A DNA stretch of 64,000 nucleotides from Sandaracinobacter neustonicus (GTDB lineage Bacteria; Pseudomonadota; Alphaproteobacteria; Sphingomonadales; Sphingomonadaceae), in the NCBI RefSeq assembly GCF_006385875.1, contig NZ_VFSU01000034.1, forward strand, positions 310,001 through 374,000, written 5' to 3'. Position numbers and translations under genes: made by a program. Below the pieces are notes generated by a model. The model made no database searches. It had not been told where the DNA came from and saw only the letters and a program-made list of their open reading frames with translations. The number at the start of each line of letters is the position of its first letter. Positions within the stretch are counted from its first letter, which is position 1. Below are positions 45,059 to 59,874 of the stretch, one piece after another.

Positions 45059-45522
45059 GTTCTGAAACCATCACTGGCTGTTCGCGATCTTCTCCCTCCC
45101 GCCCGCAGGGGGGAGGGTCGGGGAGGGGGGACGCCCTTTCCGCTTATGCCAAGGCCAATCGCCGCCAGCCGACCGAGCCGGAAAAGCGGCTGTGGGCGGC
45201 GATCAAGTCCAACCGGCTGAACGGAATCCCGTTCACGCGGCAGGTGGTGGTGGCAGGCTACATCCTCGATTTCGCCACCCGGCGGGAACGCATCGGCATC
45301 GAGATTGACGGCCACACGCATACGGATCCTGAGGCCGAAGCCCGCCGCACGGCGGCCATCGAAGCCGAAGGCTACCAGCTGATCCGCTTCCAGAACTGTG
45401 ATGTGATGGAGAATCTGCCCGGCGTGCTGGCGACCATCGCCAGCACTGTGCCTGCGCCACGGTCCTCCCCCCTCCCCAGCCCTCCCCCCGGCGGGGGGAG
45501 GGAGCAGAAAGTGCCCGCATGA
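45055..45522 (+). CDS. DUF559 (Vsr-like) endonuclease-domain protein, copy 1
   Basis: 155 residues. The core domain (about 35-125) has the DUF559 pattern: EKRLWAAIKSNRL, FTRQVVVAGYILDF (Asp72), RIGIEIDGHTHTD (Glu83, Asp85, His87, His89), EGYQLIRFQNCDV. These residues fit a Vsr/PD-(D/E)XK-like nuclease site. The ends of the gene (residues 10-27 and 134-155) are translated from GC-rich terminal inverted repeats and do not look like protein domains. It is coupled on both sides (ATGA overlaps) inside the car operon. Substrate unknown. Confidence 0.85.
   Translation: MSSETITGCSRSSPSRPQGGGSGRGDALSAYAKANRRQPTEPEKRLWAAIKSNRLNGIPFTRQVVVAGYILDFATRRERIGIEIDGHTHTDPEAEARRTAAIEAEGYQLIRFQNCDVMENLPGVLATIASTVPAPRSSPLPSPPPGGGREQKVPA
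45091..45503 (+). mobile_element. Candidate DUF559 insertion unit 1 with about 40-bp terminal inverted repeats
   Basis: The left end (45091-45131) and the right end (45463-45503) are inverted near-copies. Both form a hairpin (CTCCCTCC with GGGGGGAG) followed by GG-T/C-GGGGAGGGGGG. The DUF559 coding core lies between. The right end also supplies a G-rich ribosome site for the rraB-like gene. No target-site duplication is evident. Confidence 0.6.
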
Positions 45523-57929: not shown

Positions 57930-57981
57930 GCCACGCGGGCCATCGAGCTCCGACCAATCCAACCCTTTGTGGGGTGATCGC

Positions 57982-59103
57982 ATGAAGATTGCAGTGCTGG
58001 CCGAAACGGCCGCAGGGGAAAAGCGTGTCGCCGCGACCCCTGAAACGGTGAAAAAATATCTGGCGCTGGGCGCCATTGTTTCGGTGGAATCCGGCGCGGG
58101 CGCAGGCGCGAACATTCCCGATTCGGCCTTTGCGGATGCAGGTGCGACGCTTGGCACCCGCGCGGATGTGCTGGCAGGCGCCGCGCTGGTGCTGGGGGTG
58201 CAAGGGCCTGATCCCGCAGGCCTGCCGACAGGCATCACGCTGGCGGCCAGCCTGAACCCGCACCAGTCGAAGGATCGGCTGGCGGCCTATGCGGCGGGCG
58301 GTGTGGAGGCGCTGGCGATGGAGTTCATGCCGCGCATCACCCGCGCGCAATCGATGGACATCCTCTCCTCTCAGGCGAACCTGTCCGGCTACAAGGCGGT
58401 GATCGACGCAGCCGAAGCCTATGGCCGCGCCTTCCCGATGATGATGACGGCGGCGGGCACCATTTCCGCCGCGCGCGCCTTCATCATGGGCGTGGGCGTG
58501 GCGGGCCTGCAGGCCATCGCCACGGCACGGCGGCTGGGCGCGGTGGTGTCCGCGACGGACGTGCGGCTGGCCACCAAGGAACAGATCCAGAGTCTCGGCG
58601 GCAAGCCCGTGTTTATCGAGGATGAGGAAACCAAGGCCGCCGAAACGGCGGGCGGCTATGCGAAGGAAATGTCAGACGCTTACAAGGCCAAACAGGCCGC
58701 GCTGGTGAGCGAGACGATTGCCAAGCAGGATATCGTTATCACCACCGCGCTCATCCCCGGCCGCCCCGCGCCAAGGCTGGTGACGGCCGCGCAGGTCGCG
58801 ACGATGAAGCCGGGCAGCGTGATCGTCGACCTTGCCGTGTCGCAGGGCGGCAATGTGGAAGGCTCCAAGGCCGACGAGCGGGTGGTGACGGACAACGGCG
58901 TCATCATCCTCGGCTTCTCCAACTATCCCAGCCGTCTGGCGGCGGACGCGAGCGCGCTGTTCGCCCGCAACCTGCTGACCTTCGTGACGACCTTCTGGGA
59001 CAAGGAGGCGAAGAAGCTGGTGCTGCCGGAGGACGACGAGATCGTGAAGGCGATCAAAGTGACCGGTGGCGGGCAGATCGTGCACCCGGGGCTGCAGCCA
59101 TGA
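57982..59103 (+). CDS. pntAA: NAD(P) transhydrogenase subunit alpha part 1
   Basis: 373 residues from MKIAVLAETAAGEKRVAATP. NAD(H)-binding domain I of the proton-translocating transhydrogenase (alanine dehydrogenase/PNT fold). Visible motifs are MPRITRAQSMDILSSQANLSGYKAV and GVGVAGLQAIATARRLGAVVSATD (Rossmann loop). In this lineage the alpha chain is split into PntAA and PntAB. Its stop overlaps the start of a DUF559 gene (ATGA), which separates it from pntAB. Confidence 0.97.
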   Translation: MKIAVLAETAAGEKRVAATPETVKKYLALGAIVSVESGAGAGANIPDSAFADAGATLGTRADVLAGAALVLGVQGPDPAGLPTGITLAASLNPHQSKDRLAAYAAGGVEALAMEFMPRITRAQSMDILSSQANLSGYKAVIDAAEAYGRAFPMMMTAAGTISAARAFIMGVGVAGLQAIATARRLGAVVSATDVRLATKEQIQSLGGKPVFIEDEETKAAETAGGYAKEMSDAYKAKQAALVSETIAKQDIVITTALIPGRPAPRLVTAAQVATMKPGSVIVDLAVSQGGNVEGSKADERVVTDNGVIILGFSNYPSRLAADASALFARNLLTFVTTFWDKEAKKLVLPEDDEIVKAIKVTGGGQIVHPGLQP

Positions 59104-59582
59104 TCGCCGCGACCAGTTCCTCCCCCGCTCGCGGGGGAGGGGGACCGGCGAAGCCGGTGGAGGGGGAGCGCCCCATCCGCCGCCCGGCAACAGTCGCAAA
59201 GGCGCGCAAGCTGCGCCGAACCATGACATATCCCGAAGTGCTGCTGTGGCAGCAGTTGCGCGGGCAACCCGATGGGGTGAAGTTCCGCCGCCAGCATCCG
59301 CTCGGGGCCTATGTCGCCGATTTCTTCTGCGTTCCGGCACGCCTCGCCATCGAGGTGGATGGGGCAGCGCATGATCGCGGCGATGCGCCTTCACATGATG
59401 CCGCCCGCGATCAGTGGTTCTCGGCGCAGGGCGTGACTGTCCTGCGCATCCCGGCGTCAACGGTTCTGGCGGATGCCCGGGCTGTTGCGGCCGATATCCT
59501 TGCGACGGCGCGTGCGTCGTTCCCCCTCCACCATCCTTCGGATGGTCCCCCTCCCCCGCAAGCGGGGGAGGAACAGGAGTAA
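59100..59582 (+). CDS. DUF559 (Vsr-like) endonuclease-domain protein, copy 2
   Basis: 160 residues. The core (about 33-135) has YPEVLLWQQLRGQPDGVKFRRQHP, YVADFFC (Asp74), LAIEVDGAAHD (Glu85, Asp87, His91) and GVTVLRIPA, matching copy 1 in order. Ends (residues 6-25 and 141-160) are encoded by the inverted repeats. The stop is 4 bases before the pntAB ATG; the repeat provides AGGAG for pntAB. Its presence between pntAA and pntAB is not expected from the operon. Confidence 0.87.
   Translation: MIAATSSSPARGGGGPAKPVEGERPIRRPATVAKARKLRRTMTYPEVLLWQQLRGQPDGVKFRRQHPLGAYVADFFCVPARLAIEVDGAAHDRGDAPSHDAARDQWFSAQGVTVLRIPASTVLADARAVAADILATARASFPLHHPSDGPPPPQAGEEQE
59116..59574 (+). mobile_element. Candidate DUF559 insertion unit 2 with about 55-bp terminal inverted repeats
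   Basis: Left end 59116-59170, right end 59518-59574. The outer 29 bases of each end (GTTCCTCCCCCGC, then GCGGGGGAGGGGGACC) are almost identical in inversion; the inner hairpin differs (GGCGAAGCC-like against ATCCTTCGGAT-like), and both end in GGTGGAGGGGGA-CG. The unit encodes the DUF559 core in between. No target-site duplication is evident. Confidence 0.65.
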
Positions 59583-59586
59583 ACTC

Positions 59587-59874
59587 ATGGACTTCATCTC
59601 CATCCTCTCCATCTTCGTGCTGGCCTGTTTCGTGGGCTATTACGTCGTCTGGTCTGTCACCCCGGCGCTGCATACGCCGTTGATGGCGGTGACCAACGCC
59701 ATTTCCTCGGTGATTATCGTGGGGGCGCTGATCGCGGCTGCCGCTGAAGGCTCCGCCGTTGCCAAATGGCTGGGGCTGCTGGCGGTGGTGCTGGCCAGTG
59801 TGAACATCTTCGGCGGCTTCGCCGTCACCGAACGGATGCTGGCGATGTACAAGAAGAAGGAAAAGAAGGGCTGA
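59587..59874 (+). CDS. pntAB: NAD(P) transhydrogenase subunit alpha part 2
   Basis: 95 residues from MDFISILSIFVLACFVGYYV, three membrane helices (VVWSVTPALHTPLMAVTNAIS; VIIVGALIAAAA; LGLLAVVLASVNIFGGFAV), ending in a Lys-rich tail. Membrane domain II part of the transhydrogenase. It ends in TGATG with pntB. Confidence 0.95.
   Translation: MDFISILSIFVLACFVGYYVVWSVTPALHTPLMAVTNAISSVIIVGALIAAAAEGSAVAKWLGLLAVVLASVNIFGGFAVTERMLAMYKKKEKKG

Follow-up and report, generated by a model that had tools for sequence, protein, structure and literature searches.

Within the window—the whole 64,000-nucleotide stretch of Sandaracinobacter neustonicus DNA that was analysed—a small DUF559 gene (unit 2) occupies the junction between pntAA and a pntAB-type gene (Table 1). 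The sequence-only reading had described it as a DUF559 gene with inverted ends, coupled to pntAA through an ATGA and followed by an AGGAG ahead of the pntAB-type gene, and all of these features are seen in the sequence. The same applies to its remark that the ends are nearly identical in their outer part and divergent in their inner hairpins: hairpin 1 is common to both ends, and the second hairpin differs between them. Residues ~5 to 23 of the ORF are encoded by the left end itself. With up to two mismatches allowed, the exact unit-2 hairpin pattern occurs genome-wide only at both ends and at one other place (with two mismatches), so the ends cannot be put down to chance; this exact end type is not dispersed in the window's genome. 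The genome contains three DUF559 genes (units 1 to 3), and inverted ends of such design were found at all three.

Table 1. Features of unit 2, its neighbours and unit 1 (positions within the window).
Feature	Position	Strand	Remarks
Unit 1 of the window	45088..45508	+	DUF559, with ends of the same design
pntAA, left neighbour	57967..59103	+	ORF as listed starts with TTG; a start at ATG 57982 is more likely
Unit 2 ORF	59100..59582	+	160 aa; ATG overlaps the pntAA stop (ATGA)
Unit 2 inverted arms	59113-59146 and 59544-59577		34 nt, 94% complementary
Left end, hairpin 1	59119..59140	+	Perfect; 10-bp stem, 2-nt loop
Left end, second hairpin	59144..59158	+	Sequence unlike that of the right end
Left tail GGAGGGGG	59159..59166	+	Exact mirror of the 3' arm GGGGGAGG (59133-59140)
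DUF559 (PF04480) domain	59196..59507	+	PD-(D/E)XK kind; catalytic-type E, D, E-x-D-G and H present
Right tail GGAGGGGG	59522..59529	-	Exact mirror of its own 3' arm
Right end, second hairpin	59530..59546	-	
Right end, hairpin 1	59550..59571	-	Perfect; same stem as left hairpin 1
pntAB-type small subunit, right neighbour	59587..59874	+	

The unit 2 protein matches the DUF559 profile (PF04480) with an E-value of 3.3e-28 and 98.2 bits, against a cut-off of 20.6. Across 62 aligned DUF559 sequences, the residues E, D, E, G and H are invariant, and the D of the ExD motif is kept in >90%. The AlphaFold2 model of the unit-2 domain had a mean pLDDT of 90.3; the nearest solved structures were 3hrl (NGO0050 of N. 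gonorrhoeae; profile E-value 2.4e-37) and 3r3p, the catalytic domain of I-Bth0305I (Foldseek E-value 2.8e-4, sequence-profile E-value 3.2e-5), with E. coli Vsr as a weaker structural match (Foldseek E-value 0.11). The Vsr profile (PF03852) cut-off of 27 bits was not reached, since unit 3 scored 16.1 bits and unit 2 gave no match at an E-value of 0.1. YcjD is the DUF559 protein of E. coli (PF04480 E-value 1.4e-49), although the PF04480 control list lacks E. coli.

The generality of the design was assessed with an end test, i.e., a local-alignment score between the upstream flank of a gene and its reverse-complemented downstream flank, with a score of at least 16 taken as a pass. The DUF559 domain is present in 129 of 149 Sphingomonadaceae genomes, and 83 of 99 family units—the best-scoring part of the domain search rather than a random draw, with G034 left out—passed the test, as opposed to 0 of 473 shifted positions. 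The earlier suggestion of one design beyond chance is borne out by these numbers; most other DUF559 genes have such ends, an outcome on which the sequence-only reading had staked its case. In the search of the alphaproteobacterial class, DUF559 was found in 63 of 192 genomes, and 18 of the 30 loci listed passed. A protein scan of named genomes gave 20 loci, one of which was dropped because its flank was too short; 17 of the other 19 passed, or 14 of 16 new ones once three that repeat family units are set aside. The shifted control for the class and protein-scan loci was 0 of 184. One scan locus (L237) passes by score yet is not hairpin-like. The passing MAGs carry the labels Accumulibacter, Actinomycetota, Anaerolineales and Deltaproteobacteria, among others. 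Moreover, eight of 11 plasmid-collection records, chosen for spread out of 40 matches, passed (two from Pseudanabaena, three from Deinococcus, and one each from Azospirillum, Sinorhizobium meliloti and Sphingomonas parapaucimobilis), with a shifted control of 1 in 20. Failures of the end test numbered 16 of 99 in the family, 12 of 30 in the class, two of 19 in the scan and three of 11 in the plasmid collection, the last being two Synechocystis genes and a Neisseria gene in which degenerate hairpins are visible. On the Synechocystis sp. B12 plasmids (L253, L254), the DUF559 genes have no scored ends, and one of them lies upstream of a gene annotated as the BREX-1 methyltransferase PglX; some DUF559 proteins may therefore have other roles.

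The ends follow a common architecture: a hairpin and then a mirror-image purine tail, either directly or after a second hairpin. When tails were compared with the 3' purine arm in 150 distinct asymmetric arms—a set that includes loci related by descent, hence non-independent, as well as antisense shadows or fragments from the broken gene of G034—the mirror was the better description in 104, a direct copy in two, and both were equal in 44. Perfect mirrors numbered 123 and perfect direct copies 26 among these arms, with A or T accepted opposite A. Before deduplication, 100 of 195 arms had perfect mirrors, a figure that fell to 13 of 195 when tails were swapped between arm classes. The tail letter opposite an arm A was A in 202 cases, T in 125, C in two and G in none; this count carries less weight than the order test, because the small direct-copy set (n = 27) shows similar letters. 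We take the mirror order of the tails to be the purine-motif triplex code. G-quadruplex formation may account for the G-runs of the ends, but it does not predict a mirror order, and four G3 runs are lacking in the GGGAGAAGG class. Ends also tend to match their own partner and to vary together with the protein of the enclosed gene. A score of at least 16 was obtained for 71 of 86 own pairs (nine of 95 loci, left without automatic orientation, were set aside here, and L033 was skipped as a duplicate) versus 194 of 988 cross-genome pairs, and the distance between proteins correlates with that between ends (rho 0.30, n = 83, 0 of 999 permutations).

We next consider where the units reside. A pntAB-type gene was present in 72 of 78 genomes, and seven of the 30 loci fetched around it, the window included, carry DUF559—in all seven cases on the pnt strand. 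In a tree of 105 tips, some of them antisense shadows or fragments from the broken gene of G034, each pnt-junction DUF559 has other pnt-junction genes as its four nearest tips, across genera. A recent independent insertion of unit 2 at pnt was rejected on the basis of this tree, in which the pnt DUF559 proteins form one lineage. The DUF559 gene of Sphingomonas parapaucimobilis likewise lies between annotated transhydrogenase genes. Empty allelic sites, which the sequence-only reading had proposed to look for, do exist: within the genus, the pnt junction is filled in G000 and G152, consists of a 10-nt gap in G096 and, judged by reading the sequence, is likewise short in G149; in G150 it holds an insert without a DUF559 match. 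Two other pnt junctions deserve a mention in their own right. At L128 (G151), the gene is absent and a 51-nt gap contains a leftover-looking hairpin, perhaps the remnant of a lost unit; at L129 (G034), the DUF559 gene is frameshifted and both ends are reversed, with the tails outside and the hairpins inside.

Inheritance in place also appears to be common beyond pnt. As many as 72 of the 99 family units fall in 13 address groups with both flanking genes common across genomes; taken with the single pnt lineage, common sites therefore reflect descent or site-specific return. Judged from these sequence comparisons, DUF559 genes seem mostly to keep old addresses, and most units look inherited in place. 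The ends differ between loci while matching within a locus, and at pnt they turn over, with a median end score of 35 within a locus and 13 between loci; in eight address groups the score was 31 within a locus versus 20 between, two groups being reversed (between higher). These end scores come from the same analysis as the mirror counts, in which shadows and fragments of the G034 gene are included. A unit's own opposite end was its best match within the address group in only 23 of 53 cases. Flanking genes were co-directional in 70 of 95 readable loci, their strands being called by a crude ORF/GC3 rule and the count covering the unit loci alone. Of those 70 loci, 58 have the unit along the flanking genes and 12 against them, a bias in which the addresses are not independent. 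The 13 shared-address groups and the single pnt lineage leave the earlier idea that a site preference for coupled gene junctions is the cause unsupported. Its companion claim, that units 1 and 2 are independent insertions, has the tree against it for unit 2, which is not a recent arrival, the pnt proteins being nearest relatives across genera.

Signs of mobility were found as well. G117 carries two units that are 96% identical over 491 bp at different places with unrelated flanks; the stretch of identity starts ~28 nt beyond the left hairpin and stops ~8 nt beyond its right counterpart. In G128 and G059, a unit is inverted within matching flanks (91% and 86%), and unit 1 of the window is inverted relative to the ten other units of its address. 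Among same-address pairs, orientation is the same in 225 and opposite in 12, all of the latter coming from two addresses. Units 2 and 3 are present in some congeners and absent from others: at the unit 3 site of G149 the flanks abut, the unit and an adjoining stretch being absent, and in G152 the homology goes no further than the unit's outer right end. Three Deinococcus species have the DUF559 gene in one hpa cluster, at junctions that differ between them. No transposition event was seen, and no target-site duplication was convincing by eye, either between filled and empty sites or in the G117 duplicates.

The ends also occur without the gene. A count of the exact unit-2 hairpin had pointed to an absence of dispersed copies in the window's genome, a conclusion that we rejected because looser patterns and a sequence search gave many related types. 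With looser hairpin patterns there were 46 and 43 matching places, against 1 and 0 for the reversed controls, and at least 36 places, among the matches listed, resemble the right end of unit 3 at 95-100% over ~44 nt. As 16 of these 36 lie inside a larger composite repeat, they may not have spread singly. This composite repeat, ~250-550 bp long, was seen in G000 at C2:39250-39810 (L263, ~1420-1980) and at >30 other places among those listed; its copies in G000 are mostly 73-87% identical and join two hairpin families, of the CCTCCCC and CTCTCCC type, the second of which has mirror tails in the fetched copies and is unlike all three resident DUF559 units. Across the family, 81 of 149 genomes carry the CCCTCTCCC hairpin pattern, in up to 99 copies, and one of the 81 has its reversed control, once per strand. 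In a comparison that covers this one pattern class only, the hairpins were found in 78 of 129 genomes with DUF559 (986 copies) versus three of 20 without it (five copies), and the difference for genomes with at least three copies gave a Fisher value of 3e-5. After two hairpins per DUF559 gene were subtracted, a surplus remained in 37 of 129 genomes with the domain (622 copies) versus three of 20 without (five copies), so presence alone offers no strong contrast. Among 58 same-genus pairs, DUF559 and copies were concordant in 27, discordant in seven and uninformative in 24 (p 4e-4). Many copies are inverted doublets, mostly ~75-120 bp apart—i.e., the unit minus its gene, with the same ends. In G147, three doublet types resemble, by eye, three different resident DUF559 units, even in bases inside the tails. 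The best-scoring unit was one of the same genome for 13 of 20 dispersed loci in G147 (chance 1.0) and six of 19 in G086 (chance 0.8).

This arrangement can be set beside two known classes of repeat. PIT/TMECO elements (consensus CCCTCNCCCN3-6GGGNGAGGGN3GGGNGAGGG; PIT is the earlier name; Holder 2015, PMC4666352) are described, in the parts of that article consulted, as orphan intrastrand triplex repeats found in >260 genomes and tied to genome instability, whose single strands, by the authors' account, fold into a stable triplex in vitro, with no in vivo support; their function is given there as not known, and they show no association with transposons, phages or plasmids. In those same parts, no word beginning with 'nuclease' or 'endonuclease' occurs. 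DUF559 ends share with PIT/TMECO a hairpin plus a third strand in antiparallel purine-motif order, the inverted doublets and the dispersal; they differ in that the unit 2 ends, as a variant, have one additional hairpin ahead of the tail. E. coli K-12 holds 23 TMECO copies (PMC4666352, Table 1), one of which, by consensus match, lies ~170 bp past the ycjD 3' end; the other side of ycjD has no TMECO motif, so the motif is one-sided there. A polymorphism between fabI and ycjD was considered as loss of a ycjD unit and rejected, genes with TetR regulator and RND efflux annotations adjoining fabI in three strains; in the same interval (L248-L251), one strain carries IS421 and another has ycjD in place. 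The second class is the REPIN-RAYT system, in which, according to the consulted portions of PMC3116915, the RAYT is a Y1/HUH transposase. Inverted hairpin pairs, gene-less dispersed copies, the coexistence in a genome of several types next to different enzyme genes, and an enzyme gene that is mainly inherited and seldom duplicated are all points of likeness (PMC3116915, same portions). By this analogy, the dispersed inverted doublets appear cognate to the ends flanking the enzyme gene, as REPINs would be, a correspondence weaker in G086 than in G147. In contrast, the enzyme of the DUF559 system is of the PD-(D/E)XK kind, its ends carry mirror-tail triplex motifs, and a Y1 partner gene was not found in the window's genome.

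Drawing on these likenesses, we lean towards the reading that a REPIN-like repeat family has DUF559 as its cognate nuclease, in place of a RAYT, with unit 2 as a long-resident member; we hold this to be somewhat probable. Mobilisation of the repeats by the nuclease is what we infer from it. The G-rich strand of an end, made single-stranded by replication or transcription, would fold into a hairpin plus third strand; the DUF559 nuclease would recognise this fold, whether it belongs to a whole unit or to a gene-less doublet, and nick or cut at the base of the folded end; and repair might then copy, invert or re-insert the bounded DNA, keeping both ends alike. The gene would stay at inherited addresses, often lost and rarely duplicated, as its short derivatives spread.

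This reading is weakened by the Y1 transposase (PF01797) genes present in the genomes richest in repeats and by the composite repeat. In an alternative that we consider unlikely, a homing-type DUF559 gene would have invaded pre-existing triplex-repeat doublets as safe harbours, the doublets being moved by, say, a Y1/RAYT-type transposase or replication slippage and not by DUF559. The existence of gene-less doublets with the same ends fits such a course, as does the fact that the closest characterised fold besides 3hrl is that of a homing endonuclease, I-Bth0305I (PDB 3r3p), which shares fold and sequence profile with DUF559; by its PDB name it is a mobile-intron protein, whereas the DUF559 gene here is bounded by inverted repeats. 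Y1 genes occur in four of the 12 genomes tested; G147, G024 and G086, the three with the most repeats, are among the four, and a transposase may contribute there. However, no Y1 match was found in the window's genome or in seven others of the 12, repeat-rich G077 included, so the transposase is not needed everywhere; moreover, few copies of the hairpin occur in the 20 family genomes that lack DUF559, and ends and proteins co-vary.

Less probable still is a role in repair. DUF559 would then be a Vsr-like nuclease, directed at DNA structures or mismatches, with the task of resolving DNA stalled by a hairpin or triplex; its own substrate would flank the gene, and the repeats would spread through slippage and recombination. 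Caulobacter VsrA, a protein with a DUF559 domain, is studied as a predicted mismatch-repair enzyme in the consulted sections of PMC12907096, which link it to a DNA damage response and propose mismatch repair for DUF559; the sub-threshold Vsr match of unit 3 points the same way. Repair does not readily account for the duplication of a whole unit, nor for the fact that dispersed copies tend to resemble units resident in the genome. As for an ordinary small transposable unit that prefers coupled gene junctions, with independent insertions at the pnt and unit 1 sites, we consider it very improbable: inverted ends, sites without the unit and one duplicated unit would suit it, but addresses common to several genera and the single pnt lineage would not, and the flanking-gene counts do not support the junction preference.

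The interpretation of DUF559 as a cognate nuclease can be taken further, to a claim that we regard as possible but more doubtful than not: that DUF559 units are distinct and very widespread prokaryotic mobile elements, in which a solitary PD-(D/E)XK nuclease acts on ends with an intramolecular triplex fold, with PIT/TMECO repeats (in E. coli, cyanobacteria and others) as their non-autonomous progeny, and with a structure-guided movement for which no DDE, HUH or recombinase enzyme is needed. A link of DUF559 to triplex repeats was not found in the open-access literature consulted. The sequence-only reading had not remarked on the dispersed copies or the mirror rule, nor on the resemblance to a known class of orphan repeats. 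Our results suggest that the DUF559 nuclease—the product of a small gene that is widespread and little studied—may maintain and spread a repeat family previously without a known partner. If true, the orphan PIT/TMECO repeats would gain a candidate enzyme, a function could be assigned to a large domain that has lacked one, and REPIN-like partnerships between repeats and enzymes would have arisen at least twice with unrelated nucleases. E. coli K-12 would then make two ideas testable, namely a mover of TMECO repeats and a biological reader of intrastrand triplexes.
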